Source: Novosphingobium barchaimii LL02
Lineage (GTDB): Bacteria > Pseudomonadota > Alphaproteobacteria > Sphingomonadales > Sphingomonadaceae
Reading direction: 5' to 3'
Length of the DNA: 64,000 nucleotides
NCBI RefSeq assembly: GCF_001046635.1
Contig: NZ_KQ130453.1
Span: forward strand, 315,001-379,000
Made by a program: the position numbers and the translations under genes
The notes under the pieces: model-generated
The model's input: only the letters and a program-made list of their open reading frames with translations
Database searches by the model: none
Told to the model about the DNA's origin: nothing
Shown: positions 198 to 16,575 of the stretch, piece after piece
Layout of the letters: each line of letters begins with the position of its first letter
Numbering within the stretch: position 1 is the stretch's first letter

Positions 198-1613
198 TCA
201 GGTTGCCGGAGCGTCCTGCCATGTGCCGCCCAGAGCGCGGAACAGGTCGACCTGGGCGAAGGCCACGTCGCGGGTTGCGGCGGCGGAATCCGCTTCGGCC
301 TGCGCCAGGGTGCGCTGGGCGTCCAGCACGGCGAGGGAATCGATCTCGCCCCGGCTCTGACGGGCCAGGCCGACATTCGCGGCGCGGCTTGCCGCATCGC
401 GTGAGGCGGCGAGGCGCTCCTTGCGCAGCAGCGCGTTGCGGTAGGCAGAAAGCGCGGTTTCCGTTTCCCCCAGCGCGCGCAGGACAGCGCCGTCGAACGT
501 GGCGAGGTCCGCCTTGGCATCTGCCCTGGCGCCGCCGATACGGGCGCGGATCACTTCCTGATTGGGGAAGGCCCATGATATCATCGGGCCGAGCAGCCAG
601 CGCAGAGGGCCGCCGCCGAACACTTCGGTGGCGCCCACAGCCGTGGTGCCCACCGAGCCGCCCAAAGTGATGCGCGGATAGAGGTCTGCCGTGGCTACGC
701 CGATGCGTGCGGTGTCGGCGGCCAGGCGGCGCTCCGCGGCCTTTACGTCAGGGCGGCGTGCCAGCAGTGTTGCGCCGTCGCCGACCGGTATGGGCTGGCC
801 GACATCGGGCGTGGTGGTGCGGGAAAGCACTGCGTCGGGCAGGTCCTGCGGAGTGCGGCCGGTGAGGACCGCGATGCGGAACAGGGCCGCATCGCGCCGC
901 GCCTCCAGCGCCGGGATCGTGGCAGCCTGAGCCTCGCGCAGCTGGATGGTGCGGATCACGTCGAGCTTCTGGTTGAGGCCGCGCTCGAAGCGGGCGTTGG
1001 TGATGCGCTCCGACCGGGCGAGCAGGTCCACCGTGCGCTCGGCGACGTCGATCTGTTCGCCCGCGCTGGTGGCATCGACATAAGCGCGCACGGTATCCGC
1101 CACCACGGTTACCCGCACGGCGTCGGCATCCTCCTGCGCAGCGCCGAGATCGGCGCGCGAGGCTTCGATGCCGCGCTTTACCCGGCCGAACAGGTCCAGC
1201 TCGTAGCCGACCGATAGACCGCCATCGACGCGGCGACCTTCGCGGTCGTAGCCGGGCAGGACCTGGCTTTCCGAGGCGCGGCCATAGGTGCCGGTGGCGT
1301 CGATGGTGGTCTGCGGCAGCGCGTCCGATCGCGACCCGCGCAAGGAAGCGCGGGCGCGCTCGATCCGGGCCAGCGCGATGCGCAGGTCGGTGTTGGCGCG
1401 TAGCGCATCGGTGACGAGGCCGTCGAGCACGGTGTCGTTGTAGAGGTGCCACCACTGCCCCACGGGCGCGCCGGTGGTCACTTCGGCGGACTGCACACCT
1501 ACGAACGGTGCCTCGGCCGAGGGCGGCGGCGTGGGCGCGACATGGTCGGGGCCGACCGCGCAGGCGGAGAGGGCGGTGGCGGCCAGCAGGGCCGCTATGG
1601 TCTTCGTAATCAT
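198..1613 (-). CDS. RND efflux outer-membrane factor, NodT/OprM family lipoprotein
   Basis: Outer-membrane channel of a tripartite RND pump; it forms a trimeric TolC-like duct from the periplasm to the outside. The start at 1613 is chosen because it gives a classic lipoprotein signal (MITKTIAALLAATALSAC, lipobox LSAC, so Cys18 would be lipidated). An upstream in-frame extension has no such logic and runs into the pump gene. The protein has about 471 residues, normal for the family, with the two repeated OEP domains (heptad-like helices around residues 70-250 and 280-460) and motifs such as SVGYELDLFGR and RPDVKAAERRLAADTARIG. It is the last gene of the operon, 100 nt after the pump. A drug or solvent substrate cannot be told from sequence. 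Confidence 0.93.
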   Translation of the reverse strand: MITKTIAALLAATALSACAVGPDHVAPTPPPSAEAPFVGVQSAEVTTGAPVGQWWHLYNDTVLDGLVTDALRANTDLRIALARIERARASLRGSRSDALPQTTIDATGTYGRASESQVLPGYDREGRRVDGGLSVGYELDLFGRVKRGIEASRADLGAAQEDADAVRVTVVADTVRAYVDATSAGEQIDVAERTVDLLARSERITNARFERGLNQKLDVIRTIQLREAQAATIPALEARRDAALFRIAVLTGRTPQDLPDAVLSRTTTPDVGQPIPVGDGATLLARRPDVKAAERRLAADTARIGVATADLYPRITLGGSVGTTAVGATEVFGGGPLRWLLGPMISWAFPNQEVIRARIGGARADAKADLATFDGAVLRALGETETALSAYRNALLRKERLAASRDAASRAANVGLARQSRGEIDSLAVLDAQRTLAQAEADSAAATRDVAFAQVDLFRALGGTWQDAPAT

Positions 1614-1713
1614 CGAAGATATCCTGTCATTCGCCGCGACTGGCGGCGGTGTGAATTCTGCGGTCTTGGGCGAGTCCAGGGCGGGCGGCGCGCCTACCCT
1701 GGACTGCCAAGGA

Positions 1714-4700
1714 TCATTCCGCCGGTTGCAGTGCGTGGCTGGCGTGATGGTTCGGGCCGCGTCGGCCGCCGAGCCTTTCGGCAAGATTGCGGCACACGAC
1801 GTAGAATGTCGGCGTGAACAGAAGGCCGAACCCGGTGACGCCGGCCATGCCGAAGAACACCGCGGTGCCCAGCGCCTGGCGCAGTTCGGAACCGGCACCC
1901 TGCGCGATGACCAGCGGCACGGCGCCCAGGATGAACGCGAAGCTGGTCATCAGGATCGGGCGCAGACGGGTCCGGGCGGCGTATATGGCGGCCTCGACCG
2001 GAGACATGCCGCGTTCGTCCTCGGCCTGCTTGGCGAATTCGACCACGAGGATCGCGTTCTTCGCCGACAGCGCGATCAGCACGACGAGGCCGATCTGGGT
2101 GAGGATATTGTTGTCCATGCCCCTGAAGTTGACCCCCAGCATCGCGGCGAGAAGGCACATCGGCACGATCAGGATGATCGCCAGCGGCAAGGTCAGGCTT
2201 TCATACTGCGCGGCAAGGACCAGGAACACGAACAGGACCGCCATGCCGAAGACGACGCCTGCCGTATTGCCGGCGGTGGACTGCTGGTAGGCGATGCCTG
2301 TCCATTCATGGCCGTAGCCTGCGGGCAGGGTCTCGTCGGCGATCTTTTCCATCGTCGATAGCGCCTGTCCGGTCGAGTATCCGGGGGCGACGTTGCCGTC
2401 GACCTCGATGGCGGGGTGCAGGTTGTAGCGCACGACGCGGTATGGGCCGGTCTTGTCCTCGAAATTGGCGACCGAACCGATGGGAACCATGGCGCCGGAA
2501 TTCGAGCGGGTCTTGAGGTTGGCGATATCGGCGACCGAGCCGCGATGGGCCTGGTCGGCCTGCGCGGTGACGCGGTAAGTGCGGCCCAGCAGGTTGAAGT
2601 CGTTCACGAAAGCCGATCCGAGGTAGACCTGAAGCGCCTCGAATACACGCTCGGGAGGAACGCCCAGAAGATCGGCCTTGCGGCGGTCGACGTCGGCGAA
2701 GACGCGCGGGGTGTTCTGGTCGAACAGGGTGTAGATCTGATGCAGGCCCTTGGTCTGGTTGGCCTTGGCGATCAGCGGGCCAGTGGCCTTGGCAAGATCG
2801 CCGTAACCGCGTCCTTCATTGTCCTCGACGATCATGCGGTAACCGCCGGCGGGGACGATGCCGTTGATGGTGGGCGGCGGGATCAACAGGACCTGCGCCT
2901 TGTCGTAGCCCTTCATGGCTTCCTGTGCCTGCTGCATGATCTGGTCGTAAGTGACGCCCAGTTCCTTGCGCTCCTCGAAGGACTTGAACGGAAAGTAGAT
3001 CGCGGCGGCATCGGGGGCGGCGGTGCGCGAAGGCCCGTGGAAGCCGGCGAACATCACCGCGCCGCGAATGCCCTTGATCGGCAGCAGCCGCTTGGCGATG
3101 TCCTGCGTCACCTGATCCGTGCGCTCGAGCGAGGAACCGGAGGGCAGGAACGCGGCGGCGAGGAAGTAGCCCTGGTCCTGCTGCGGAACGAAACCGGTCG
3201 GCGTCGCCCAGAACAGGCCCACGGTAGCGGCGATGAGGGCGCCGTAGACGGCCATCATGCGCGCGGGCAGAACCACGAGACGGGCGGTGAGGCGGGCATA
3301 GCTGTCGCTCATCCGCTCGAAGCCGTGGTTGAAGCGGTCGCCCGCCGATTGCAGGGCCCGGCGCCAGCGCGGCGCATCCTCGCCAAGCCGCTCCTTGTGG
3401 CGCAGCAGGATCGCCGCCAGCGCCGGGGAAAGGGTGAGCGAGATGATCAGCGACAGCACCGTTGCGGTCGAGATGGTGACGGCGAACTGCTTGTAGAATT
3501 GGCCGGAAATGCCGTCGATGAACAGCGTCGGCACGAAGACCGCGCAGAGCACCAGGACGATGGCGACAAGCGCGCCGGATACCTCGTCCATCGAACGGCG
3601 CGAGGCTTCGAGCGGGGTTAGTCCTTCCTCGATGTAGCGTTCCACGTTCTCGACCACGACGATCGCGTCGTCGACGACGATGCCGATGGCGAGCACGAGC
3701 CCGAACAGCGAGAGGTTGTTGAGCGAATAGCCCACGGCTGCCAGCATCACCGCCGTGCCGACCAGCGAGACCGGAATGGCGATGATCGGGATGATCGCCG
3801 CGCGCCAGTTCTGCAGGAACACCAGGATGACGAGGACGACGAGGATCACCGCCTCGAACAGGGTGTGATAGACCGCATCGATCGACTGGCCGATGAATTC
3901 GGTGGGGTTGTAGATCACCGAATATTCAAGGCCCTTGGGGAACTTTGCGGCAAGGGTATCCATCTCGGCGCGCACGGCCTGCGCGGATTCGAGCGCGTTG
4001 GAGCCGGGGCGCTGTAGCACCGCCATGACGATGGTGGGCTTGCCCGAAAGATAGGTGTTGGTGTTGTAGTCCTGCGCGCCCAGCTCGACGCGGGCGACAT
4101 CGCGCACGCGCACCTGATGGCCATCGGGATCGGTGCGGATGACGATGTCGGCGAACTGTTTCGGGTCGGCAAGGCGCCCCTGAAGTTCAACGCCGACCTG
4201 GTAGGCATTACCCTTGTCGAACGGCGGGGCACCGATGGAGCCTGCCGAAACCTGCACGTTCTGGGCCTTGAGCGCGGCGACGATCTCGCCGGCGGTCAGG
4301 TCCATTTCGGCGGCGCGGCCGGGGTCGATCCAGATACGCATTCCATAGTCGCGCGCGCCGAACAGCTGCACGTCGCCCACGCCCTCCACGCGCGCCAGCC
4401 GGTCCTTGACCTGGGTGAGCGCGTAGTTCGAAAGGTAGTCGCGGTCATAAGTGCCGTCGGGCGACTGGAGGTTGACCACCATCAGGAAGTCGGGCGAGGA
4501 CTTGCGGGTGACCACGCCCAGGCGCTGCACTTCTTCGGGCAGGCGCGGCGTGGCGACGGCCACGCGGTTCTGCACGAGCACCTGCGCGGCGTCGAGGTCG
4601 GTGCCGATCTTGAAGGTGACGGTGATCGTCACCTTGCCGTCGCCGGTGGACTGCGAGTCGACATAAAGCATGTCGTCGACGCCGTTGATCTCCTGCTCGA

Positions 4701-4899
4701 TGGGAGCAGCGACAGTGTCCGCAACGGTTTCGGCTGAGGCGCCGGGGTATTGGGCGGTCACCGTCACGGTGGGCGGGACGATGTCGGGATACTGGCTGAC
4801 CGGCAGGCCGACGAACGCCAGCGCGCCGATCACGGTGATGATCACCGCGATGACGCCCGCGAAGATCGGGCGGTCGATGAAGAAACGGGAAAGTCGCAT
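1714..4899 (-). CDS. RND multidrug efflux pump, inner-membrane subunit (HAE1/AcrB type)
   Basis: Proton-driven inner-membrane transporter of the hydrophobic/amphiphilic efflux family. With 1061 residues it matches AcrB/MexB. It begins MRLSRFFIDRPIFAGVIA (TM1), followed by the porter-domain sequence QYPGASAETV. The TM4 segment VLAIGIVVDDAIVVVENVER carries the paired aspartates of the proton relay, and the second half repeats the fold (IGLVVLIALSAKNAILVVEFA, TM10 region with the conserved Lys). It lies between the membrane-fusion gene and the outer-membrane gene on the same strand. A 195-nt gap containing a palindromic hairpin separates it from the upstream gene, which could set the relative expression of the two. 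Confidence 0.96.
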   Translation of the reverse strand: MRLSRFFIDRPIFAGVIAVIITVIGALAFVGLPVSQYPDIVPPTVTVTAQYPGASAETVADTVAAPIEQEINGVDDMLYVDSQSTGDGKVTITVTFKIGTDLDAAQVLVQNRVAVATPRLPEEVQRLGVVTRKSSPDFLMVVNLQSPDGTYDRDYLSNYALTQVKDRLARVEGVGDVQLFGARDYGMRIWIDPGRAAEMDLTAGEIVAALKAQNVQVSAGSIGAPPFDKGNAYQVGVELQGRLADPKQFADIVIRTDPDGHQVRVRDVARVELGAQDYNTNTYLSGKPTIVMAVLQRPGSNALESAQAVRAEMDTLAAKFPKGLEYSVIYNPTEFIGQSIDAVYHTLFEAVILVVLVILVFLQNWRAAIIPIIAIPVSLVGTAVMLAAVGYSLNNLSLFGLVLAIGIVVDDAIVVVENVERYIEEGLTPLEASRRSMDEVSGALVAIVLVLCAVFVPTLFIDGISGQFYKQFAVTISTATVLSLIISLTLSPALAAILLRHKERLGEDAPRWRRALQSAGDRFNHGFERMSDSYARLTARLVVLPARMMAVYGALIAATVGLFWATPTGFVPQQDQGYFLAAAFLPSGSSLERTDQVTQDIAKRLLPIKGIRGAVMFAGFHGPSRTAAPDAAAIYFPFKSFEERKELGVTYDQIMQQAQEAMKGYDKAQVLLIPPPTINGIVPAGGYRMIVEDNEGRGYGDLAKATGPLIAKANQTKGLHQIYTLFDQNTPRVFADVDRRKADLLGVPPERVFEALQVYLGSAFVNDFNLLGRTYRVTAQADQAHRGSVADIANLKTRSNSGAMVPIGSVANFEDKTGPYRVVRYNLHPAIEVDGNVAPGYSTGQALSTMEKIADETLPAGYGHEWTGIAYQQSTAGNTAGVVFGMAVLFVFLVLAAQYESLTLPLAIILIVPMCLLAAMLGVNFRGMDNNILTQIGLVVLIALSAKNAILVVEFAKQAEDERGMSPVEAAIYAARTRLRPILMTSFAFILGAVPLVIAQGAGSELRQALGTAVFFGMAGVTGFGLLFTPTFYVVCRNLAERLGGRRGPNHHASHALQPAE

Positions 4900-5042
4900 T
4901 TTGGGTGGCCCTTCTGGGCGCGCGTCGGGGCGGGCATGCAGCGGGGCTGCAGGCGAGGCATTCCGGCGCGCCGGTGGCGCGGTAGGTTAAGATGAGAGCG
5001 GCGTGAGGCCTCCGCGGCGAAACGCGGCCGGCCTGTTTATTT

Positions 5043-5076
5043 CCCCGTCACCCCGCTTTTGCGCAGGATGACGGGG
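5043..5076. repeat. REP-like hairpin inside the efflux operon
   Basis: CCCCGTCA and TGACGGGG form an 8-bp perfect stem around an 18-nt loop in the gap between the membrane-fusion and pump genes. The motif resembles the GTCATCCC-type palindromes common between sphingomonad genes. It may be a mobile palindrome or an mRNA processing or stability element. Confidence 0.45.
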
Positions 5077-5094
5077 TCTTGTGTATCGGCGCCG

Positions 5095-6372
5095 TCAGTT
5101 CACGAGCGTCGCCTGTGAGGCAGCCGGCTCGGCGGGGCCGGGCCCTGCCTGGACCTGAGTGCCCGAAACGATCTTGCCCGCTTTGGTCTGGACATGGGCG
5201 CCCGGCATGACGGCCTGATAGTTGGAGATGACCACCGTATCGTCCGCCTTCAAACCCGAGCGCACGACGCGAAGGTCGCCGATCAGCGGTCCGGTTTCGA
5301 CCGGCCTGCTGGCCACCGTTCCGTCCTTGCCCACGACCATCACGACCTTGCGGGTCTGGTCGGCACGGATCGCGGCGTCGGGCACCAGCATGGCCTTGAC
5401 GGTGCCGCCGCTGGCAAGGCGCATGTTGCCGAACATGCCCGGCGTCAGGAATCCGTCGGCGTTGTCGAGGCTGGCGCGCACGCGGATCGTGCCCGAACGC
5501 GGGTCCAGCCCGTTGTCGGTGAAGTCCAGCCTGCCCTTCCAGCGATAGTCGGCCTCATCCTGCAAGCGAACCTCGACAGGGGCGGCATCCCGCTTTTCGG
5601 CCTTGTCGCGCTGGGTCTTGAGGAACAGCGATTCAGAGGCGTCGAAAGTGAAGTAGATCGGTGAAACGGCGTTGATCGTGGTCAGCAGCGTGGCCCCGGC
5701 GCCATTGTCGCCGGAGACGAGATTGCCTGAATCCACCCGGCGGTCGGACACACGGCCCGAGATCGGCGCGCGCACCGTGGCGAACTCCACGTCGAGGCTA
5801 CGGGTGCGTACCCGTGCCTGGGCGCCGGCCAGTGCAGCCTCGGCGGCGCGCACACGGGCGCGGCGCTGATCCACTTCGCTGGCGGCCATCGCCTCGTCCC
5901 CGGTCAGCCCGGCAACGCGCGAATAGTCGGAACGGGCGAGGGCGAGATTGGCGCTGGCCGAGGCTGCATCCGCCTGCGCTTCGGCAAGGGCGGCGCGGTA
6001 GGGACGCTGGTCGACCACGAACAGCGCCTGTCCGGCCTGAACATAGTCGCCGTCCTTGAACAGGATCTGGGTAATCGCACCCGACACACGCGGGCGCACC
6101 TCGACCGTCTTGCTGGGGGCAAAACGGCCGACGTAATCGTCCCACTGCGTCACATCGCGCACCAACGGATGGGCGGTCTGGACGATGGTGGGCGGCGGCA
6201 ACGCGGCGGCGGGCTCGGGCTGGAGGAACTTCCAGCCCAAGCCTGCGACCGCGACCAGCGCCAGCGCGCCGATCACGACCGGCATCCGGCGCGAGGACGA
6301 GCCGCGCTCGGTCCTTGCTTCGCTGTCCCGTGCGTATTCGGAGGGGATTTCAAGAGATGTGGCGAGATTCAC
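5095..6372 (-). CDS. RND efflux membrane-fusion (periplasmic adaptor) protein
   Basis: Periplasmic adaptor that joins the inner-membrane pump to the outer-membrane channel. It has 425 residues: a cytoplasmic N-terminus with an Arg-rich stretch, one membrane anchor (about residues 30-48, VVIGALALVAVAGLGWKFL), then barrel-sandwich/lipoyl halves (VEVRPRVSGAITQILFKDGDYVQAGQ split around an alpha-hairpin at about 115-190) and beta-barrel and membrane-proximal domains ending near residue 400. The start codon is GTG at 6372, and it overlaps the upstream stop codon as GTGA, so translation is probably coupled to the small leader gene. It is the second gene of the operon. Confidence 0.93.
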   Translation of the reverse strand: MNLATSLEIPSEYARDSEARTERGSSSRRMPVVIGALALVAVAGLGWKFLQPEPAAALPPPTIVQTAHPLVRDVTQWDDYVGRFAPSKTVEVRPRVSGAITQILFKDGDYVQAGQALFVVDQRPYRAALAEAQADAASASANLALARSDYSRVAGLTGDEAMAASEVDQRRARVRAAEAALAGAQARVRTRSLDVEFATVRAPISGRVSDRRVDSGNLVSGDNGAGATLLTTINAVSPIYFTFDASESLFLKTQRDKAEKRDAAPVEVRLQDEADYRWKGRLDFTDNGLDPRSGTIRVRASLDNADGFLTPGMFGNMRLASGGTVKAMLVPDAAIRADQTRKVVMVVGKDGTVASRPVETGPLIGDLRVVRSGLKADDTVVISNYQAVMPGAHVQTKAGKIVSGTQVQAGPGPAEPAASQATLVN

Positions 6373-6767
6373 GCGGCGAGCCTCCGGAAGGGCGCTTTCG
6401 AGCGCCCGATGATATCGATGACGGCACCGATCTTGGCATCGCTGTGACCGGCCGCGCGGGCCTCCTTCAGCGCCGAGACCGGCAGGGTATAGCCCTGGTG
6501 CCAGGCGTGAACCGCCAGGCGCCGCAGGGCTTCGAGCTGTTCGTTGGCCAGCATGGCCGAAGGCGGCGTCGGGCCGAGGATCAGCCGCGAAAGCCAGCCT
6601 CGCTTGCGCTGGGGGCGCAGGGTCGCAAGGCCGTCTTCCCGCGCGAGCGCGACGACGCGGTGTTCCAGCGCGGAGAGCGGCTGTGTCTCGGCGGTCGGGA
6701 GCGCCGGGACGGAAATTGCGATGGGCAGCGCCTGGTGTGCTGCATCGGCGAAATTGACGAAGGCCAT
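6369..6767 (-). CDS. Small conserved-looking protein leading the efflux operon
   Basis: The family is not recognised. The ATG at 6767 is chosen for a good Shine-Dalgarno (AAGGAG) about 8 nt upstream. The 132-residue product has no signal peptide. Visible features are an N-terminal hydrophobic patch (ALPIAISVPALP), a central basic segment (RPQRKRGWLSRLILGP) and a C-terminal helical region (LEALRRLAVHAWHQGYTLP, then IGAVIDIIGRSKAPFRRLAA). The C-terminus vaguely resembles DUF1127-like Arg-rich tails, but this is not firm. It is the first gene after the operator-controlled promoter and overlaps the adaptor gene by 4 nt, so it is made together with the pump. A role as regulator or accessory factor is inference only. 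Confidence 0.7.
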   Translation of the reverse strand: MAFVNFADAAHQALPIAISVPALPTAETQPLSALEHRVVALAREDGLATLRPQRKRGWLSRLILGPTPPSAMLANEQLEALRRLAVHAWHQGYTLPVSALKEARAAGHSDAKIGAVIDIIGRSKAPFRRLAA

Positions 6768-7040
6768 GTCTCGTGCTCCTTCCTTGGAGTGCCCCGGCGC
6801 ACGCCCCGGGACGGGGGAAGGGCGCACACCGGGGCTACTTCCGGCTCGGGGCAGCCGGAAGGGTTTCGGGTGCAGTCGACCGGCGCCGGACACGGGTGTC
6901 CAACCGGGCAACTGCCAGTTCTGCGTAATGTGGCCCCGCGACCCGCGTGGGTTTGGGCGCCATGACCGACCCGCGAGGGCCAGCTGGTTGCTGAGGGATT
7001 ACCCGATACCGCGTCGGCGGCGAGTCGGGCACTGTGTTTC

Positions 7041-7102
7041 TATACCGAGTGGTATATATTCCATGCTGCGTTGCGTCAAGCGGCTTTCTGTACCGACCGG
7101 TA
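7041..7102 (-). promoter_or_regulatory. Efflux operon promoter with two TetR operators
   Basis: On the minus strand, -35 TTGACG (7079-7074) and -10 TATACC (7056-7051) are separated by 17 nt. Operator O1, TATACCGAGTGGTATA (7041-7056, IR 6-4-6), covers the -10. Operator O2, TACCGACCGGTA (7091-7102), sits just upstream of the -35, with the two centres 48 bp apart. Both match the site over the tetR start codon (TACCG-N2-CGGTA type). The layout predicts tight repression. The rest of the 6768-7237 gap shows no gene. Confidence 0.75.
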
Positions 7103-7237
7103 AATTAGGTCGCGCCAGCGCTTTTCAAGAGGTGAACGGCAGTTGAATGAAATTTTCGTGGGAGCCGTGGACGGCGGCGAGCCCTGCTTTACGCTGGGCA
7201 GCAATCTCGCACGTTCCAGCTTTCCCGAGAGCCAGCC

Positions 7238-7861
7238 TTAGCGGCTGGGCCACATCGACAGGAACGAGTCGACCGTACCTTGCAGCTCGGTGGGGCAAAG
7301 GCATCCCTGCGCCTTGACCGACATGCCTTGCAGGACAGTGGTCAGGCAGCCGGCCAACGCTTTTGCGTCGACGCTGCCGGGCAGGTCGCCTTCGCCCTGC
7401 GCACGCAGAAAGCGTTCGGCAATAGCCGCCTCTGTCGCGATGCGCCGGGCGATGACATGCTCGCGGATCGAATCGTCTTCCGTCGCGCAGGCGACCGTGC
7501 TGATGACGCCAAGGCAACCATGCGGATCGCTGGTGCCGCAGTGAGTGGCGACGGCGCCGTTGAGCAGACGCTCGGCCACGCCGCGGGCAGTGGGCGCATC
7601 GAGCGCCTTGCCGACATAGGCCAGCTTGTCGCGCTCATAAAGTTCCAGCGCCTTCTTGAAGAGCGCTTCCTTGTTGCCGAAACACGCATAGAGGCTGGGC
7701 TTGGTAATACCCATGGCCTCGGTGAGCTCCGCCATCGAGGCGCCTTCGTAGCCCCGGGTCCAGAATACGCGCAGAGCCGAAGCGAGCGCCTTGTCGGGAT
7801 CGAATTCACGCGGTCGGCCCCGACTCGCGGTGGGGGCCGTAATGGGGGCCGAACATTTCAT
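7238..7861 (-). CDS. TetR/AcrR-family repressor of the efflux operon
   Basis: A 207-residue TetR-type regulator. The N-terminal HTH lies at about residues 20-65 (RGYEGASMAELTEAMGITKP, then SLYACFGNKEALFKKALE), followed by an all-helical ligand domain with several cysteines (CGTSDPHGCLGV, CLCPTEL) that could be redox- or electrophile-sensing; the latter is inference. The gene precedes the efflux operon on the same strand. Its ATG lies inside an operator identical in type to the two at the efflux promoter, which argues for autoregulation and for efflux genes as targets. Confidence 0.9.
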   Translation of the reverse strand: MKCSAPITAPTASRGRPREFDPDKALASALRVFWTRGYEGASMAELTEAMGITKPSLYACFGNKEALFKKALELYERDKLAYVGKALDAPTARGVAERLLNGAVATHCGTSDPHGCLGVISTVACATEDDSIREHVIARRIATEAAIAERFLRAQGEGDLPGSVDAKALAGCLTTVLQGMSVKAQGCLCPTELQGTVDSFLSMWPSR

Positions 7862-7873
7862 ACCGAGCGGTAT
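7860..7873 (-). promoter_or_regulatory. TetR operator over its own start codon
   Basis: ATACCGAGCGGTAT is a perfect inverted repeat with a 2-nt centre (AG). It shares its half-sites with the two operators at 7041-7056 and 7091-7102 and overlaps the start codon of the regulator, so binding would block its own expression. Confidence 0.75.
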
Positions 7874-7937
7874 ATAGGTAGGAGGGGCGGCTGCGTCCAG
7901 TGGCGCATCCCTCCCTATCCTTTTGATCGCGCTCGGG

Positions 7938-7991
7938 TAACGTGAACCTTCGTTGCGCTAACGGTGAACTTCCGTCGATCAACGGTGAACC
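7938..7991 (+). repeat. Three direct repeats, 21-bp period, before the ArsR gene
   Basis: AACGTGAACC (7939), AACGGTGAACT (7960) and AACGGTGAACC (7981) recur at exactly 21-bp intervals, two helical turns, so all copies face the same side of DNA. They lie about 100 nt upstream of the ArsR-type gene. Phased direct repeats are typical of activator or response-regulator sites rather than ArsR palindromes. No cognate regulator is visible. Confidence 0.6.
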
Positions 7992-8088
7992 TGACCTGTT
8001 TCATAGGAAGTATGGCCGGATTTTCACGGACATCAATCCGACGAAGTCCTATCTCCACAGGTCTCGCTGGATGCCATAGTATTTGCCG

Positions 8089-8370
8089 ATGGAAACCGAA
8101 TCAGTCGTCTCTGCACTGGGAGCGCTTGCTCAAGATACGCGTCTGGCGACGATCAATCTCCTCGTCCATTCCGGACCGGATGGGCTCCCTGCTGGCGAGA
8201 TCGCCCGTTCCCTCGGTATCCCGAAAAACACATTGTCGAGCCACCTCAACATTTTGTCCGTCGGAGGCATTGTGACCTCCGAACGCCAGAGCCGACATAT
8301 TGTCTATCGCATCAACAAAGCCGCTTTGCGGGATCTATCGGAATATCTCATCGCGCTCCACTCCGCTTAA
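8089..8370 (+). CDS. ArsR-type winged-helix regulator
   Basis: A 93-residue HTH protein. It begins with the conserved ArsR opening (ALGALAQDTRLATINLLV), followed by AGEIARSLGIPKNTLSSHLNIL as recognition helices and a winged hairpin (VTSERQSRHIVYRIN). ArsR members are small dimeric metal- or redox-responsive repressors; the CxC metal site of ArsR/SmtB is absent here, so the signal is unknown. ATG at 8089 is preferred over an in-frame TTG at 8083. The last codons overlap the end of the convergent CBASS effector gene by 4 nt, so this gene sits exactly at the edge of the defence operon. Confidence 0.85.
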   Translation: METESVVSALGALAQDTRLATINLLVHSGPDGLPAGEIARSLGIPKNTLSSHLNILSVGGIVTSERQSRHIVYRINKAALRDLSEYLIALHSA

Positions 8371-9455
8371 ACAACTCGAAGAGTCCTCGTCTCGATCGAC
8401 GCTTGTCCGGTGGTTCCAACGGGCATCCGCACGCCCCATGGGTACGGCGGTGTGGCAGCCTGGTCATATTGGTAAACGATGAGGTCTGGCAGGTTGCGCT
8501 TGTCGTAGGAGCGCCCAAAGCGAAGCACTGAACTGTTCGTGGCAGAAAACACAAGGTGAACCAGTTTCACCTTCGTCCCGCAAAGCGCACGCACCGTGTC
8601 GAAAAACTGCTGCGCCAAAGCTACCTGCTTCTCGGAAGACCAGAACGATGCTGGATTTGGCTTGGGCATTTTCAAGTGAATCACGGGCAGGTCAGGGAAC
8701 GTCTTGGCGATGGCGCCAGCGTCGACGTCATACGACATCGATACGGCAACAACAGCTTCTATCTCATCGGTAAGGGCATCCAGCCCGGAGACAATGAAGC
8801 GCTCCCCATCATCTGTGCCGTTCAACTCGCGCCAAGCTTCGGAGCCGCGATCCCAATCCATCAGCAGCACTTCAGACTCGTCATCGATCAGCACACCGGC
8901 GAGGAAGGTATATGGGACCGGTGCCATTCCAGCCGCTACAAGCGAGATGTCCGCCCGATCAAACCCTTCCTCTTGATGCCGTATCGATGTCGGCAGTTGG
9001 GTTATGTGACCCAACGCGATGCCAGGTTGGAGAATCGAACCATCGGCACCTTGTCGCAGGTTCACCAGCACCGATTGACGGCGACCTTTCAGGCGGCTGG
9101 GAACAGCCTTCGACAGCGGAGTTCCACTCGTATCACGGAGACCACGAAGTTCTATCGCCAGGACTTTCTTACGGCCTTCCCGGTGATGCTCGACATAAAT
9201 CAGGATCAGTCCGGCGACCATCAGGACTATGCAGACGCTGAACATCGCCCAGAATGCTAATCCTGGAAGCCCGGAACTGCTGTCATAGGAGAAGGAGAAG
9301 CGACCATCTGGCGTAGGGAACCCGACCGAAATCGCAGCTCCGCCCATGATAGCCACCAGCAGACCTACACCCCAGCGAATGAGCGCCAAACCGGGAGATC
9401 GAAGGCGAAACATGTAGTTGATCAGCGACGTGATGAAGTGGTTGACGTGTTTCAT
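8367..9455 (-). CDS. cap14: CBASS effector: two-TM SAVED-domain protein (Cap14-like)
   Basis: Predicted membrane effector of the CBASS anti-phage system. Residues about 24-45 (LALIRWGVGLLVAIMGGAAI) and 66-88 (GLAFWAMFSVCIVLMVAGLI) are transmembrane helices, followed by a basic linker (EHHREGRKKVLAIELR) and a cytosolic C-terminal SAVED domain. That domain ends with the characteristic KLVHLVFSATNSSVLRFGR and a Tyr-rich strand. SAVED binds the cyclic oligonucleotide made by the CD-NTase; the known outcome for the 2TM-SAVED class is membrane disruption and abortive infection. The ATG at 9455 overlaps the cap3 stop as ATGA, and an upstream in-frame extension is therefore rejected. It is the last gene of the operon. 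The exact nucleotide ligand is not readable from sequence. Confidence 0.88.
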   Translation of the reverse strand: MKHVNHFITSLINYMFRLRSPGLALIRWGVGLLVAIMGGAAISVGFPTPDGRFSFSYDSSSGLPGLAFWAMFSVCIVLMVAGLILIYVEHHREGRKKVLAIELRGLRDTSGTPLSKAVPSRLKGRRQSVLVNLRQGADGSILQPGIALGHITQLPTSIRHQEEGFDRADISLVAAGMAPVPYTFLAGVLIDDESEVLLMDWDRGSEAWRELNGTDDGERFIVSGLDALTDEIEAVVAVSMSYDVDAGAIAKTFPDLPVIHLKMPKPNPASFWSSEKQVALAQQFFDTVRALCGTKVKLVHLVFSATNSSVLRFGRSYDKRNLPDLIVYQYDQAATPPYPWGVRMPVGTTGQASIETRTLRVV

Positions 9456-9937
9456 TCGGATTTCGTCTCGATGATATTGGCGATGGGGCCAATCGGCTTC
9501 GGAAAGCCTTGGCGCTCGAAAATTGTCGCTGTCCCTGTCAAGCGCCACCATGACGTACGGACCACCAACAGGAGCGCAAATGGAATGTCCCGCTCACCGT
9601 TGACCAAGGTCTGCATGGATCTGATGTCCTCGCCGCTGGGAACCGGATGGTGGTTGGGATGGGAGTGCCACTCGCCAAGGTAGTTGAAACGCGAGTAGTC
9701 ATGACCGGTTTTATCAAAGAACGCGGTCAGTTCCTCGTTATGATGCTCAACGGAGCGCACGAAATGCGCGGCGCTGCCCTGGGTAGGATCTACCGAGAAC
9801 CCGACAATGCGAAATGCGCCGGGGTCGAGTTGCTCGGCCATCAAGATCCCGCCGATTTCACTGCGTCCAGCTCGTCGGACAACGTTGCGCATGCGGGATC
9901 GTTGTTCGGCGGGAAATTCAATCCGCACCCGCTTCAA
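9452..9937 (-). CDS. cap3: CBASS Cap3, JAB/JAMM isopeptidase
   Basis: Metallo-isopeptidase that removes the CD-NTase from its conjugates, opposing Cap2. The 161-residue protein carries a complete JAMM zinc site: Glu27 in SEIGGIL, and H91-S-H93-P-x6-S101-x2-D104 in GEWHSHPNHHPVPSGED. The start is TTG at 9937, inside the end of cap2 (20-nt overlap); internal starts at GTG or at Met16 cannot be excluded, though Met16 would shorten the fold. The stop codon overlaps the effector start. Position between cap2 and the effector is the canonical type II order. Confidence 0.9.
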   Translation of the reverse strand: MKRVRIEFPAEQRSRMRNVVRRAGRSEIGGILMAEQLDPGAFRIVGFSVDPTQGSAAHFVRSVEHHNEELTAFFDKTGHDYSRFNYLGEWHSHPNHHPVPSGEDIRSMQTLVNGERDIPFALLLVVRTSWWRLTGTATIFERQGFPKPIGPIANIIETKSE

Positions 9938-11645
9938 CCTTGTTAGGGAAAAACTCCGCCATCAGGGCGATCATCTCTTCCGGCGACTTGATCACCTCAT
10001 CTGGACCCCAGACGCCCTCTTGCGCCAAATCTATCGGAAAGACCTCGAACGGGGCCGTGAATATCCACTCGGGAGCCAAGCCAATTGTGTAGGCAGAGCT
10101 GGGGAACAAGGTGTCCGCACGCACGAGCGTATCGATTGCCATCCGGGTCAGATGTGCAGCGATCACGCTGACATCGCCATCGTCGGCAACCATCACGTGC
10201 CCATCATGACCTTGATGTTCATAGCTACCAGCTCCCTTTCCGGTCCACTCGATGCCTTGCAATGCACACCATTCTACAACTTGGCGGCGAGCAGCATGAG
10301 GGACCGGGTCATGATCAGGCCGTAGTCGTACGACCATTCCACCGATCCCACCTTCGTAAATTTCACCCCAGATCATCGGAATCTTTTGGCGCTTCGCGAC
10401 CGAGCCGCAAAGGTTGTAGCTTACGGGCTCGGCGGTCGCATCGATGATAAGGTCACACGATGCGATATGATCGAGCGTGACCTCAGTGAACGAACTGCTC
10501 TCTTGTCCGCCGAGAGCTTGCCGTCGTTCAATAACTTGCGTGTTGGCATTGACGTCAAGCAGTCGGATTCTCAGCGCATCGGGCTTATTTAGACCGACAG
10601 CTCGTGCATCCAGATCGTTGCGGACCAAGTTGCCAGGTGCAAGAATGTCGCCATCGACCAGGACGAATTTCCCAACCCCGACGCGCGCCAATGATGTGGC
10701 GACTTTCGAGCCGACTGAACCGCATCCGACAATCGCTACAGATTTCCCAGCCAACGAAGCATAGCTATCCGGTAGTCTGGGTGTGTCTGCGCCTGTTTCG
10801 ACCGCACGATACTCAAAGGAGGTCGGACCATCAGACAAGTGCAGTATCGTCGACATCCGCATCATGCCCCGATGCATGATGATGATGAACAATTCCGACT
10901 TGTCGGTGTGCACAACCGTTAGCGCATCCGTAGCCCCAATGGTTTCTAGCATCGCGGTCAGCTCTTCAACGCTTGGGCACGTCGCTAGGGGGAAGTCATC
11001 GCTCAGGTGGACCGCAACAGCACACCGGGCGCGTTCATTCGATACCGGCGCGCCCTGTACCTGCCAGATTGGTGACTCAGTTGCGCCGAGGCGGCGAACA
11101 CGCGCTAGCCAGAACTCACTGTGATTGTGTTCGCTGACCGCTGCTTCGACAGCTACATTCGGCTCCAATTGGGCAAATGCTTCTTTCAGGTCCGCTGGTA
11201 CGGTGAAGCGCATCTTGGCAAATCGAACCGACTGCCCGACAGTCGATTGATGAGCGCTTGCCACACGAGCATGTACACCTGGAGCAGGACTTTCACCTAG
11301 CAACAGTCGGCGAGCGCTCTCGAGCATCATCGCGCCTGTAAACGCTGGTTCCCAGTTATCCGGCCGAAGCTCGAGGCACAATTCCCCGTTCGCATATTGG
11401 TGAATTGAGAGTCTACTTGCATCGGGCGCCAGGACTCGAGGGCAAGCGTCCGGGAAGTAATGTGGGTAGGCCAACGTCAAGGCAATAGGTTCACCATGAA
11501 GCAGGATCTCGAAATCCGCTATGAGATGAGCGTCGTTTTCCATTCGCCAGGAGACATTCTGCAGCCACTCGCTGCTTTGCTCCAAAGCATCAATGTCCGA
11601 CCGTTCGCTTCGATACCGGTCGTGACGCTCAAGCCACCAAATCAT
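9918..11645 (-). CDS. cap2: CBASS Cap2, fused E2-E1 ubiquitin-transfer-like enzyme
   Basis: A 575-residue fusion that primes the CD-NTase by attaching its C-terminus to target proteins. The N-terminal E2-like domain (about 1-115) has the catalytic-type Cys90 in HQYANGELCLELRPDNW. The C-terminal ThiF/E1 domain (about 295-560) has the ATP-binding loop VAIVGCGSVGSKVA (G307-x-G-x2-G312), an Arg/Asn set (GNLVRNDL) and a candidate E1 cysteine Cys460 in VVEWCALQG. A linker domain lies between. ATG overlaps the CD-NTase stop (ATGA), implying coupled translation. The assignment of Cys460 as the transfer cysteine is by position, not alignment. Confidence 0.93.
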   Translation of the reverse strand: MIWWLERHDRYRSERSDIDALEQSSEWLQNVSWRMENDAHLIADFEILLHGEPIALTLAYPHYFPDACPRVLAPDASRLSIHQYANGELCLELRPDNWEPAFTGAMMLESARRLLLGESPAPGVHARVASAHQSTVGQSVRFAKMRFTVPADLKEAFAQLEPNVAVEAAVSEHNHSEFWLARVRRLGATESPIWQVQGAPVSNERARCAVAVHLSDDFPLATCPSVEELTAMLETIGATDALTVVHTDKSELFIIIMHRGMMRMSTILHLSDGPTSFEYRAVETGADTPRLPDSYASLAGKSVAIVGCGSVGSKVATSLARVGVGKFVLVDGDILAPGNLVRNDLDARAVGLNKPDALRIRLLDVNANTQVIERRQALGGQESSSFTEVTLDHIASCDLIIDATAEPVSYNLCGSVAKRQKIPMIWGEIYEGGIGGMVVRLRPDHDPVPHAARRQVVEWCALQGIEWTGKGAGSYEHQGHDGHVMVADDGDVSVIAAHLTRMAIDTLVRADTLFPSSAYTIGLAPEWIFTAPFEVFPIDLAQEGVWGPDEVIKSPEEMIALMAEFFPNKVEAGAD

Positions 11646-12859
11646 GCAAACCCCGCCGGCTTGGTCGGCTTCCTTGCCGTGTTGCCGAATGAATGAGGCG
11701 CGTTTGCTGCAGCAGCCGCAGCAACGGCAGCCGTAGCGGGGCGAAGAAGGCCAGACGTCGTCGTCGTCCGTTCTTCAGCGCGCTTTGCCAATTCAGCGCC
11801 GAGATGCGGGCTCAAGGTATCCGTGATCCGCGTGCGTGTTACCTGCTGCGCAGCAGTGGCAAAGTCATGCCTCGCCTGCGCCAACCATTCATAGAACGCT
11901 CTTTCCCTCTCAGGGAAGGTCGCCCACTTGTCAGCGAAATTCTCCAACGGATCGCTGGGATTCTGAATGTACGCTTGGCCGTTAACCCGTTCGATGAACT
12001 GGTCCATGCGGCTCAAGATCGACAACAGCGCATCAGCTATCTGCTCTTCGCCATCATATGCGTGGCCTGCCAAGGTCGTGATGATGATCGAGATCGGACA
12101 GCAGTTAATCTCGTCATTGACGTACATGATGTCCCTGTGCCGCTTCAGGATCATGATGGCAGACTGAAGTGGCGTCCGGACCTTGTAGTCGGGAATGGAT
12201 TCCACGCTTGCACGGATTGAGTCAGCCAGGATCTGCTTACGCCTACGCTGAATGACCTCCATCCGGGACTTGAACCAACGAAGGTATCCCTTCGGATTGG
12301 AGTGCGGCCAATCCTGGGTCACCAAATCATAGAGGTGATGCTCGTTGTCGGTGATGCCAATGGCTGGATCGGCCCATTGCGCATCAAGGAAGCGGGCTTC
12401 GAGGACCGCACGCATGGCTGCGCCATCAGGGAGTGCTGGGACAACGTCCATATGGAACTGCGCACCGTCAGCGTACCGCAGCGTCCAGCAGCGCCGTCGC
12501 TCCTCGAGCGGCTGGTGCATTCCCTTCGATACCCGATAGGCTTCAATTTCTCGTCCAACGAGAATCTTCAACTCGCGCTGGGTAAGTTGAGCCTTTGTCA
12601 GGTCCTTCAATTCGCACACCGCGTCGATGTCGTACTCGGCGTCTGCCTTGATCGGCTTGATGACCGTACCCAGTCCGAACGAGCCTTGAACATAGACGGC
12701 CGGCGAATACTGCGCGATCGTTGATGCGTCGCGATTCAACCAGTCTCCAAGTGAGTGGTAGCTGCGCTCCGCCTGTTCGTAACGAGCTTCACTGACCGCC
12801 AATTCGTCAGCAAGCGCTTCCAGATACTCCTGAGCCGTCGCAGTTGCTTTCGTAACCAT
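11642..12859 (-). CDS. CBASS CD-NTase (cGAS/DncV-like nucleotidyltransferase)
   Basis: Phage-sensing cyclic-oligonucleotide synthase, 405 residues. The polymerase-beta-like active site is intact: G59-S60 in VYVQGSFGLGT, D77 and D79 in DAEYDIDAVCEL, and third carboxylate D138 in AQFHMDVVPAL. The helical C-terminal half ends in a flexible Ala/Thr-rich tail and the terminal residues PAGFA, the kind of exposed end that Cap2 joins to targets. ATG at 12859 is chosen for a near-perfect ribosome site (AAGGAGGT, 4 nt upstream); a longer in-frame extension to 12949 lacks support. It is the first gene of the operon. The clade (possibly CdnD-like) and product cannot be fixed without alignment. Confidence 0.93.
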   Translation of the reverse strand: MVTKATATAQEYLEALADELAVSEARYEQAERSYHSLGDWLNRDASTIAQYSPAVYVQGSFGLGTVIKPIKADAEYDIDAVCELKDLTKAQLTQRELKILVGREIEAYRVSKGMHQPLEERRRCWTLRYADGAQFHMDVVPALPDGAAMRAVLEARFLDAQWADPAIGITDNEHHLYDLVTQDWPHSNPKGYLRWFKSRMEVIQRRRKQILADSIRASVESIPDYKVRTPLQSAIMILKRHRDIMYVNDEINCCPISIIITTLAGHAYDGEEQIADALLSILSRMDQFIERVNGQAYIQNPSDPLENFADKWATFPERERAFYEWLAQARHDFATAAQQVTRTRITDTLSPHLGAELAKRAEERTTTTSGLLRPATAAVAAAAAANAPHSFGNTARKPTKPAGFA

Positions 12860-13229
12860 GGGACCTCCTTGGCGACCGCCAATACAAGGGGTCACACTCG
12901 CGTTTGATGAGGCAAAGATTGAGCCTCGATCGTCGAGCGACAAGGTCATGGGGTCAATAAATAATCAAAAAAGGCACAGTTTTTTCAATAAATTGACCCT
13001 GCTTCTGGACAATGGTCCGTTTCGGGACTGCGGAGAAAATATTGGGGATACGTGGGCCGAATTCAAAGTGTCATATGGTCTCGCCATGGCCGGTAAAGCT
13101 TAGGCATAATCGTTATCACAACTTTTTTCAGATGATGTGCGACAGATTATATGCACACTTTTTTACGGGCCAAGAGGCCTTAAAGGGTGTCGGAAGCCTC
13201 GGCGCGCACCCCATTCGTGTAGTTGCCTG
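12860..13229 (-). promoter_or_regulatory. CBASS upstream region with nested dyad
   Basis: An AT-rich gap with no gene. GGGTCAAT (12951-12958) and ATTGACCC (12992-12999) form an 8-bp outer stem, and A6/T6 tracts (about 12967-12986) pair inside it. It lies about 90 nt upstream of the CD-NTase start, so it may be the operator or promoter of the CBASS operon. Precise -35/-10 boxes are uncertain. Confidence 0.5.
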
Positions 13230-13925
13230 TCAGTTCAAGAACCGACTTTCAATCTGAACATCGAGCCCTTCTGCCAGCTCCGACGTAGGATCGTCGGCGA
13301 TCAGCAGCAACGTTGCTCCCATCGGTTCGGAGACTAGCGCGGCTGCTACCGGCTCACTCGGGTCGAATCCTTCCCTGACGAGAGCGTTGCCAGCAGTGAT
13401 GTCGCCAAAGCGACCTCGCACGTCCAGCGCAACTGCATCTTCGTTACGGGCAAGGATGGCGAGAAAGATCATGCACCGTCCGGAGTCAGTCGCTTCGGTG
13501 ATGCTCACGGTAAAAAGCCGCAACGACTGTCGTGCCTCCCGATTACGAGGTCCGATTGTGCCGATCGGGTCTGAGGCAGGCGATCCAAGGAGCAGGGCAT
13601 CGATCTGCCCTGGTTTGGTCATCGCACTCAGGCAGAGACCGTGAGCAATGATTGCGCGCTGATAATCAGGCCGATCCTGACAAGCATCTATAGCCGACCG
13701 CTCAGAGAAGAGAGGCTGGCGGGCATACATCCATTCTACCGGATCCATTCGCCTACTGTAGCTGAAGCGTTGACCAGTTTCTGCGGCGACCGAGATCAGT
13801 CGTGCCAACTGGCGCGCACTCAACGTGACCGGAGGGTCCTGCATCTGGTCGATGCCTAGCGGGTCAAGATAAGGTATCGCCATAAAGGGATCAGGTCGGA
13901 CAGGTTCGTTACTGCATGAGAACAT
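13230..13925 (-). CDS. Hypothetical protein upstream of the CBASS operon
   Basis: The family is not recognised. The 231-residue reading frame may begin at 13925, or at an internal ATG at 13883 (MAIPYLDPLGIDQMQ). It lacks a signal peptide, membrane helix or obvious HTH. The composition is acidic and soluble (SVAAETGQRFSYSRRMDPVEW, GLDVQIESRFLN). A middle strand-like region (LRLFTVSITEATDSGRCMIFLAIL) suggests an alpha/beta fold. It has the same strand and similar base composition as CBASS, separated by 370 nt, and dyads lie on its upstream side. It could be a cargo gene of the island or an accessory CBASS protein. The latter is speculation. Confidence 0.5.
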   Translation of the reverse strand: MFSCSNEPVRPDPFMAIPYLDPLGIDQMQDPPVTLSARQLARLISVAAETGQRFSYSRRMDPVEWMYARQPLFSERSAIDACQDRPDYQRAIIAHGLCLSAMTKPGQIDALLLGSPASDPIGTIGPRNREARQSLRLFTVSITEATDSGRCMIFLAILARNEDAVALDVRGRFGDITAGNALVREGFDPSEPVAAALVSEPMGATLLLIADDPTSELAEGLDVQIESRFLN

Positions 13926-14908: not shown

Positions 14909-15472
14909 TCAGCGGACTCGTGACAAGCTGCGGAAAGTGATCGACCAGCGCGGCCGATCCATCTCGGCAATGCTGTGCTCCCAATCGTAACGGGCAGGGC
15001 CACTAATGTGGTATCCCGCTCGTGGCTCGAGCGGCATAGTAGTTCTCGCAAAGCCATCCGCACGCTTACTGCGAAATCGCATAGTCGCTGGCGCACCTAA
15101 CGAAATTCCGACGATGTGCTCGTACACCGGGCGATCTCGGTGCCAGCCGCTTCCAGCACCGGGATCGTACCGGATCAGCAGCGCCTGGATCAGGAGATCC
15201 GGATCAAGTCCGGCGAACTGCGCCGCACGATCGCGGAACGGCGCCAGCCAGTCGGGGATCGGCGGAGCCTCCATCGGCCGGCCGACCTCGAAGTCGTAAC
15301 ACCAGCCGAACGACGTCGTCAGCCGCTTGCCCGTCCAACCCTGGAAGCGGAACGGCGTCAGGTCGCTCTCGTCGATCCGGCGGATCAACATCTGCTCCTC
15401 CGCACGGTCGATGATATCTCGCCGCTCTGCCAGGCCCGGCAGCACTGGTGTGTCGAACAAGTCCAGCATCAT
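14909..15472 (-). CDS. AlkB-like 2-oxoglutarate/Fe(II) dioxygenase
   Basis: Oxidative demethylase of the AlkB family, repairing alkylated bases by removing methyl groups as formaldehyde. The 187-residue protein shows the iron triad H111-x-D113 (SGWHRDRP) and H166 (DWEHSI), and the 2-oxoglutarate Arg region RPRWSITFRSL near residue 175-181. ATG at 15472 overlaps the stop of dinB as ATGA, so the two are translated together from the SOS promoter. This short form resembles ALKBH2/3-like bacterial AlkB proteins rather than E. coli AlkB. An RNA or protein substrate cannot be excluded. Confidence 0.9.
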   Translation of the reverse strand: MMLDLFDTPVLPGLAERRDIIDRAEEQMLIRRIDESDLTPFRFQGWTGKRLTTSFGWCYDFEVGRPMEAPPIPDWLAPFRDRAAQFAGLDPDLLIQALLIRYDPGAGSGWHRDRPVYEHIVGISLGAPATMRFRSKRADGFARTTMPLEPRAGYHISGPARYDWEHSIAEMDRPRWSITFRSLSRVR

Positions 15473-16575
15473 GCCGCCTGGCACTCTGCGAAGATCGGTA
15501 GCTCCGTCTCGACCGCTTCATGCTCTGGCGCTGCTGCTTCCGCGAAGTTCGAGACCGTGACGCCGACCAGCCGGATACCCTTGGCCGGCGGGAGAACAGT
15601 GCGAACGAGATCTACAGCCGATCGCCGAAGGTTCTCCTGTGACACGATGACGCTGGGCTGGCTGCGGCTGCGGGTAATCTGCTGGAAGTCGCCATACTTG
15701 ATCTTCACCGTGACGGTTCGACCGAATGCCTGCCGGGAATCACACCAAGCCCAGACGTCGTCCGCCATCTTGAGAATACCCGCCTCGATCTCGGTCGCGT
15801 CCGTCAGGTCACGGTCGAAGGTTGTCTCCGAGCCCGATGACTTGCGCACCCTGTTGGGATTGACCGGGCGATGATCGATGCCGCGCGCAATGGCGTAGTA
15901 CCACTCGGCGGAGCTGCGAAAATGCTGCTGGAGGAATTCCAGCGACTTCGCCCTCAGATCCGCGCCGGTCTCGATACCCAAACCCTTCATCTTGTCGGCC
16001 GTGACCGGACCCACCCCGTGGAACCGGCTTACAGGCAAGGTCTCCACCCATGCTGCCCCCATGTCCGGGGTGACCGCGAACTGCCCGTTCGGCTTGCGAT
16101 GATCCGACGCCAGCTTGGCCAGGAACTTGTTGTACGAGATGCCCGCCGAAGCCGTCAGCCCGGTCTCTTCCAGGATCGCTGCGCGGATCGCCTTAGCCGT
16201 CTTCCATGCGGTCTCGATGCCAGCTTTGTTCGCCGTCACGTCGAGGTAGGCCTCGTCGAGCGAGAGCGGCTGGATCAGATCGGTGTAGCGCGCAAAGACC
16301 TCATGAATCTGGCGCGACACTTCCTTGTAGACCTCGAATCGAGGCGGCACGAAGATCAGTTCGGGACAGCGCCGGCGGGCCGTCACCGAGGGGAGCGCCG
16401 ACTTCACGCCGAACTTGCGCGCCTCGTAGCTGGCGGCAGCGACCACGCCACGGGCCGCACCATGACCGACGGCCACCGGCTTCCCGCGAAGGGAAGGATT
16501 ATCGCGCTGCTCCACGGAAGCGAAGAAGGCATCCATATCCACGTGAATGATCTTGCGGATGACTGAGTCGGTCAT
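15469..16575 (-). CDS. dinB: DNA polymerase IV (Y-family, translesion)
   Basis: Error-prone translesion polymerase of 368 residues. The catalytic carboxylates are visible: D13 (HVDMDAFFASVE), and D107-E108 (PLSLDEAYLDVT). The thumb and little-finger domains follow (VSRFHGVGPVTADKMKGLG as the helix-hairpin-helix). It ends with a short tail (LPIFAECQAA) lacking a clear clamp-binding QL-LF motif at the extreme end, although an internal one may exist. It is the first gene of a two-gene operon with the alkB-like gene, behind a LexA box. Confidence 0.95.
   Translation of the reverse strand: MTDSVIRKIIHVDMDAFFASVEQRDNPSLRGKPVAVGHGAARGVVAAASYEARKFGVKSALPSVTARRRCPELIFVPPRFEVYKEVSRQIHEVFARYTDLIQPLSLDEAYLDVTANKAGIETAWKTAKAIRAAILEETGLTASAGISYNKFLAKLASDHRKPNGQFAVTPDMGAAWVETLPVSRFHGVGPVTADKMKGLGIETGADLRAKSLEFLQQHFRSSAEWYYAIARGIDHRPVNPNRVRKSSGSETTFDRDLTDATEIEAGILKMADDVWAWCDSRQAFGRTVTVKIKYGDFQQITRSRSQPSVIVSQENLRRSAVDLVRTVLPPAKGIRLVGVTVSNFAEAAAPEHEAVETELPIFAECQAA

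Follow-up and report, generated by a model that had tools for sequence, protein, structure and literature searches.

The stretch analysed here (64,000 nucleotides, nt, of Novosphingobium barchaimii LL02, contig NZ_KQ130453.1; hereafter the window) contains at 8367-12859 four adjoining minus-strand genes that very probably constitute a type II cyclic oligonucleotide-based antiphage signaling system (CBASS), an antiphage operon working via a cyclic nucleotide and a membrane effector. The genes encode, in order of transcription, a cGAS/DncV-like nucleotidyltransferase (CD-NTase), Cap2, Cap3 and an effector joining two transmembrane (TM) helices to a SAVED domain (Table 1). A first-pass annotation, made from the sequence alone, had seen in them a type II CBASS, complete and with a 2TM-SAVED effector. 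Family profiles and catalytic residues bear this out, as do the occurrence of all four genes together in 23 relatives and the fold predicted for SAVED. All four genes lie where it had placed them, with profile scores far past chance, which together with the conserved operons in relatives rule out a chance match or a frame artefact.

Gene content and conserved residues

The CD-NTase matches the SMODS (6.2e-10) and DncV-like (5.5e-10) profiles of Pfam and the PADLOC Cyclase profile (5.2e-144). Its intact G-S motif and three Asp, seen in the first pass, are invariant in a hand-picked alignment (A8) of 26 CD-NTases, 18 of the tail type described below and 8 of the AGS_C type. The closest solved CD-NTases found by phmmer are VcCdnG (9woo, 5e-83) and SmCdnG (2.7e-36), the next match being at 1.8e-14, and by this nearest solved match, rather than by placement in a tree of clades A-H, the window CD-NTase appears to be clade G-like. 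Seventeen named residues of VcCdnG (Q55, G56, S57, D73, D75, K118, K119, R120, D135, S193, N194, Y198, K244, R247, S261, E308 and F310, in the numbering used in PMC12804361) were located in the window by following the phmmer alignment manually: 15 are identical, with Arg in place of K118 and K119, and 14 of the 17 do not vary across the 26 sequences. In the same alignment the window shows the N/Y lid pair, described in PMC12804361 as predominant in clade G; N188 is kept in 26/26 sequences, and at position 192 there are 23 Tyr and 3 Phe.

The CD-NTase ends in 15 residues with the consensus F-x4-R-x-P-x2-P-x-G-[FY]-[AG], in which F, R, G and the two P do not vary across 24 distinct tails (from 26 sequences); an Ala-rich linker ahead of them is variable. 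The CD-NTase of L035 is split in two and was left out of this count, though its end carries the motif. The GFA terminus noted in the first pass is present, and the terminal residue among the 24 tails is A in 21 and G in 3, fitting the rule for Cap2/Cap3 operons: PMC10097602 gives Gly or Ala as the last residue, with a variable penultimate one, for 1,583 cyclases from full Cap2 + Cap3 operons, and describes no such conservation in cyclases of other operon types. Our consensus refines this published rule for the branch of the window.

Cap2 matches the ThiF profile (2.2e-21, Pfam) and the PADLOC E1-E2 profile (2.2e-200), and phmmer aligns its residues 55-144 with E2 enzymes (best 4.9e-5). Among 26 Cap2 frames longer than 500 amino acids (aa), the E2 cysteine C90 and the GxGxxG glycines G307, G309 and G312 are invariant, in agreement with the E2-E1 fusion first proposed. 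Cap3 matches Prok-JAB (1.5e-11, Pfam) and the PADLOC JAB profile (1.3e-62), and the full set of JAMM residues claimed for it is indeed found, without exception in 28 sequences. The alignments therefore show every active site named in the first pass to be kept; only the E1 cysteine of Cap2, which it had not named, was left unplaced.

The effector matches Saf_2TM (1.2e-34) and SAVED (7.5e-39) in Pfam and the PADLOC 2TM effector profile (2.3e-137). Hydropathy places its two TM helices at residues 24-42 and 70-88, as expected from the initial reading, which had also made itself dependent on a SAVED fold; the fold is given by structure prediction and structure search and resembles that of BtCap14. 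A third TM helix at 172-190 was rejected, since the model places this segment in the SAVED core. Residue counts refer to an alignment (A7) with 40 rows, taken from 47 long effector frames after leaving out near-copies or truncated ones (L003, L015, L036, L037, L039, L042 and L045); the broken or partial effectors of L046, L048 and L049 were never among the 47. The structure alignment (A9) has 34 rows, plasmid rows removed.

The gene junctions are compact. The CD-NTase start was set at ATG 12859 because a Shine-Dalgarno sequence, AAGGAGG (12864-12870), precedes it at a spacing of four bases. CD-NTase and Cap2 overlap by 4 nt in an ATGA, and Cap3 and the effector also meet in an ATGA overlap, both as first described. 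For Cap2 and Cap3 a 20 nt overlap had been given, from a TTG at 9937 that directly abuts AAGG; the start is probably GTG 9928 instead, nine bases past AAGG, with an overlap of 11 nt and an N-terminus equal in length to that of L001, and the TTG was not preferred because the GTG better fits the ribosome-binding site and this relative. An effector frame of 394 aa from ATG 9551 was dropped, since ATG 9455 matches the N-termini of relatives and the ATGA junction. The claim that these overlaps imply fixed stoichiometry was overstated: what they suggest is translational coupling.

Table 1. Features of the CBASS operon in the window of N. barchaimii LL02
Feature	Position	Strand	Basis
CD-NTase (CdnG-like cyclase), 405 aa	11642..12859	-	ATG 12859; Pfam/PADLOC profiles; phmmer to VcCdnG
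CD-NTase active site G59-S60, D77, D79	12623..12685	-	26/26 aligned CD-NTases, window included
CD-NTase third Asp, D138	12446-12448	-	26/26 aligned, window included
CD-NTase lid N188, Y192 (= N194/Y198 of VcCdnG)	12284..12298	-	Hand mapping on phmmer alignment
CD-NTase C-terminal putative conjugation tail, F-x4-R-x-P-x2-P-x-G-F-A	11645..11689	-	Conserved in 24 distinct tails
Cap2, E2-E1 fusion, 575 aa	9918..11645	-	Profiles, phmmer, conserved residues
Cap2 E2 cysteine C90	11376..11378	-	26/26 Cap2 frames
Cap2 C460, candidate E1 cysteine	10266-10268	-	23/26 Cap2 frames
Cap3, JAMM isopeptidase, 158 aa from GTG 9928 (161 aa from TTG 9937)	9452..9928	-	Profiles, start context, L001 N-terminus
Cap3 JAMM E24	9857-9859	-	28/28, window included
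Cap3 JAMM H88, H90, S98, D101	9626..9667	-	28/28, window included
2TM-SAVED effector, 362 aa, ATG 9455	8367..9455	-	Saf_2TM and SAVED profiles; junction sequence
N-terminal helix 2-17, aromatic-x-F-R motif, probably interfacial	9405..9452	-	Model; R17 in 37/40
TM helix 1, residues 24-42	9330..9386	-	Hydropathy; helix 21-37 in model
TM helix 2, residues 70-88	9192..9248	-	Hydropathy; inside model helix 65-95
SAVED sensor domain, residues 97-358	8382..9167	-	Profile, model, structure search
SAVED R203	8847-8849	-	40/40 effectors
SAVED S241	8733-8735	-	40/40 effectors

Proposed mode of action and signal nucleotide

By analogy with relatives, Cap2 would couple the CD-NTase, through its C-terminal alanine, to the E2 cysteine C90 and then attach it to cell proteins, priming it, and Cap3 would undo this conjugation. 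Upon infection, the CD-NTase would make a 2'-5'-linked cyclic dinucleotide, the likeliest being the cyclic GMP-AMP (cGAMP) isomer 3',2'-cGAMP, leading the SAVED domains to stack and the effector to damage the membrane. Cap14 is grouped with membrane-disrupting effectors in PMC10419184 and PMC12642688, the latter citing Duncan-Lowey 2021 on this point, and the discussion of PMC8568899 predicts pore formation by 2TM effectors through back-to-front stacking of SAVED in a circle.

A 2'-5'-linked dinucleotide is favoured by the residues of the sensor, and 3',2'-cGAMP is our best guess from the likeness of the cyclase to VcCdnG, the closest solved one, which produces it according to PMC12804361. In LlCap5, R234 and S274 contact the 2'-5' phosphate of 3',2'-cGAMP, R234 being the discriminating residue (PMC8568899); they correspond to R203 and S241 of the effector. 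Two back-face residues of AsCap5 whose mutation lowers activity, D220 and K347, correspond to D192 (37/40) and K319 (33/40). The operon resembles clade G CBASS with Cap5 (VcCdnG-Cap5, AsCdnG-Cap5) in the family of its CD-NTase, in the active-site, lid and pocket residues mapped above and in a SAVED sensor with both phosphate contacts; unlike them, it has membrane helices in place of an HNH nuclease and is devoid of the guanine-reading Arg. Among the matches listed, the SAVED of the PsCap5, AsCap5 and LlCap5 chains is only 13% identical to that of the window effector.

Several results weigh against this reading, some touching the gene families and the effector and others the signal. In NCBIfam, the SAVED domain is over the cut-off; the cyclase, Cap2-like and Cap3 equivalogs are all matched below it, so the window cyclase, Cap2 and Cap3 are divergent members. 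The E2 part of Cap2 has in Pfam a ubiquitin-conjugating match of 0.0076, under the cut-off. In the E1 part, none of the cysteines is kept by all 26 frames, and the candidate C460 (23/26) is Tyr in L014, L016 and L018, which suggests that the E1 step may be unusual in this branch, since all three keep C90 and the CD-NTase tail. The E1 cysteine is not placeable by sequence because profile comparison with the solved Cap2 aligns only the ThiF core. The module is like that of type II CBASS in its E2 Cys, ThiF ATP site, JAMM motif and Ala/Gly-ended CD-NTase, and unlike it in the divergence of Cap2. As for the effector, the hairpin between the TM helices is modelled with low confidence (predicted local distance difference test score of 57), and the full-length TM-SAVED chains superpose, as whole-chain alignments, with root-mean-square deviations of 6.9 A (9wq3_G) and 8.6 A (9wq2_A). 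Both are titled 3TM; hydropathy gives the window effector two helices, to which the model adds a short one at the N-terminus. It shares with the Cap14/TM-SAVED proteins (BtCap14, 9om7; 3TM-SAVED, 9wq2 and 9wq3) membrane helices fused to SAVED and, with BtCap14, the SAVED fold, and differs from them in sequence (14-19% identity).

The points on the signal bear on an alternative that we consider possible, if on the unlikely side: the same system may make and read 2',3'-cGAMP, 3',2'-linked cyclic di-AMP (c-diAMP) or another nucleotide instead of 3',2'-cGAMP. The exact nucleotide is unsure because R281 of LlCap5, the guanine reader, is replaced by A248 in the window effector and not conserved among its relatives, 36/40 effectors having D, A, N or G there; the column of AsCap5 D349 is Asn in 36/40 effectors. 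R203 and S241 may be general SAVED features rather than proof of a 2'-5' linkage, since effectors that have unlike cyclases as neighbours (L006 and L007) retain them too. Structures released in April 2026 show the solved TM-SAVED relatives, namely the SAVED of BtCap14 (9om7) and 3TM-SAVED as a dimer and as a filament (9wq2, 9wq3), with 2',3'-cGAMP, and structures of PsCap5 with 3',2'-c-diAMP are also present in PDB. In the cyclase, the position of VcCdnG K118 is Gly in 22/26 sequences and Arg in the window. Against another signal stand the 15 of 17 identical residues, which include E308 and F310 of the donor guanine pocket. The first-pass statement that both signal and pore mechanism were open is partly out of date, given these 2',3'-cGAMP-bound structures and the 3',2'-cGAMP product of VcCdnG.

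An inverse logic as in Panoptes, where a constantly made nucleotide keeps the membrane effector inactive and its removal by phage sponges releases the effector, is improbable. Passages of PMC12657218 describe a small set of 2TM-SAVED proteins adjoining mCpol cyclases and a tested effector, OptE (a beta-barrel with no SAVED domain), that operates so, and effectors of the window's family also pair with different cyclases. However, the window cyclase is accompanied by Cap2 and Cap3, and Cap2 conjugation raises cGAMP output in the system tested in PMC10097602; SAVED residues required for AsCap5 activation are also partly kept. Also improbable is a decayed or silent operon, no longer working in this host: the CD-NTase has Gly two residues past the GS motif (R59 of VcCdnG), where 20/26 have Arg, and promoter and terminator scans gave no excess over chance (promoter-like matches 5 found vs 3.4 expected), but two other rows of the alignment also have this Gly and the operon keeps four full-length frames, intact active sites, a ribosome-binding site and coupled overlaps.

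Two kinds of cyclase beside one effector family

Besides the window, our set comprises 49 relatives, which makes 50 loci in all. The effector family accompanies a tail-bearing cyclase with Cap2 and Cap3 in 24 loci, window included, a cyclase ending in the immunoglobulin-like AGS_C domain without Cap2 or Cap3 in 9 (L012, L013, L019, L020, L021, L034, L040, L042 and L050), and both kinds together in 3. Thirteen loci are in neither class, with truncated, broken or more distant partners; in L024, Cap2 and Cap3 are present and the contig ends before the CD-NTase. The two-gene AGS_C systems share with the window the effector family and a related cyclase core; they differ in that the cyclase ends in AGS_C, with no tail motif, and no Cap2 or Cap3 was found within the fetched stretch.

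In the tree of the cyclases (38 rows), a single change, with a support of 93 (not starred), is enough for the tail and AGS_C kinds. For the effectors, the tree needs three changes between the two labelled kinds, with a weak p of 0.037 in the approximately unbiased (AU) test against one clade, from a quick tree with long branches. Repeated independent gains of AGS_C cyclases, which we considered, are not shown. The operon itself is of an already known kind; what is new here is the split of the effector family between tail cyclases with Cap2/Cap3 and AGS_C cyclases. We tentatively suggest that Saf_2TM-SAVED is a plug-in killer with an exchangeable trigger, in which a related cyclase core could be switched on either by Cap2/Cap3 tail conjugation or by a fused Pycsar-type AGS_C sensor, the two modules being mutually exclusive per cyclase. 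If true, the Cap2/Cap3 device and the phage-sensing Ig-like domain would be functional equivalents, and the window operon and its AGS_C counterparts would form a natural matched pair for learning what Cap2 conjugation replaces.

The operon is a compact, intact and clean example of a clade G-like type II CBASS with a membrane rather than a nuclease SAVED effector, a pairing to which no paper was devoted among the matches listed in the open-access literature searched. It lets one ask whether a CdnG 2'-5'-linked dinucleotide drives Saf_2TM-SAVED to stack in the membrane, and whether a like cyclase and effector can be controlled interchangeably by Cap2/Cap3 tail conjugation or by the AGS_C domain.

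Some relatives have other arrangements. Three Rhodobacterales plasmids (L002:626-8128, L003:623-8128 and L004:622-8128) carry a six-gene composite CBASS in the order CdnG-like cyclase, Cap2, Cap3, HNH-SAVED (Cap5-like), AGS_C-ended second cyclase and 2TM-SAVED effector; by analogy with Panoptes, it is possible that the second layer guards the first. In Ruegeria (L029:1567-4510), an effector close to that of L025 has a distant cyclase (70 bits) as its neighbour and lacks this Cap2 and Cap3; its partner may have been swapped recently. In Roseobacter denitrificans, a WYL-domain gene lies just upstream of the operon (L005:2455-3273) and is perhaps like the CapW regulators described in PMC9122588.

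Genomic context

The operon is probably an acquired island in a sphingomonad, as deduced from the matches of its flanks. On one side, four collinear pieces of window 226-7902 align, at 76-84% identity, to a plasmid of Novosphingobium resinovorum, the alignment ending at a TetR gene; on the other, AlkB-DinB (14924-16557) has a 72% match in a genome from the family of the L009 genome, with nothing else matching in the 19 kb taken from it. The G+C content is 0.51-0.58 over 8-15 kb vs 0.62-0.70 over 0-8 kb and 0.61-0.63 over 15-20 kb, and composition alone is no island marker because other stretches of the window dip to 0.57-0.59 (20-23 kb, 40 kb and 57 kb). At the island edges we found short imperfect repeats only and no mobile-element repeats. 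No effector match was found in phages, nor any relative in viral contigs by pattern scan with a single effector protein. Saf_2TM is rare in the family of the L009 genome, occurring in 4 of 397 genomes drawn from it, and the effectors and cyclases of L009 (Sphingobium), L011 (Sandarakinorhabdus) and L047 (an alphaproteobacterium) are nearly identical, which we take as a sign of recent transfer.

Two neighbouring genes were considered as parts of the system. An ArsR/SmtB-type winged-helix gene (8083-8370) is convergent with the effector and overlaps its stop by 4 bases; its membership has no support, as the only matches among the open reading frames (ORFs) of the searched loci lie ~6 kb from the effector (L040 and L042). 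Upstream of the CD-NTase, on the operon strand, an ORF of 231 aa (13230-13925) was rejected, since Pfam, PADLOC and NCBIfam gave no match for it and the ORFs of the searched loci include no relative. No plasmid match was found for 7900-8080; at this low end of the island (7940-8000), three GTGAAC words (7942, 7964 and 7985), spaced 21-22 bases, were spotted by eye.

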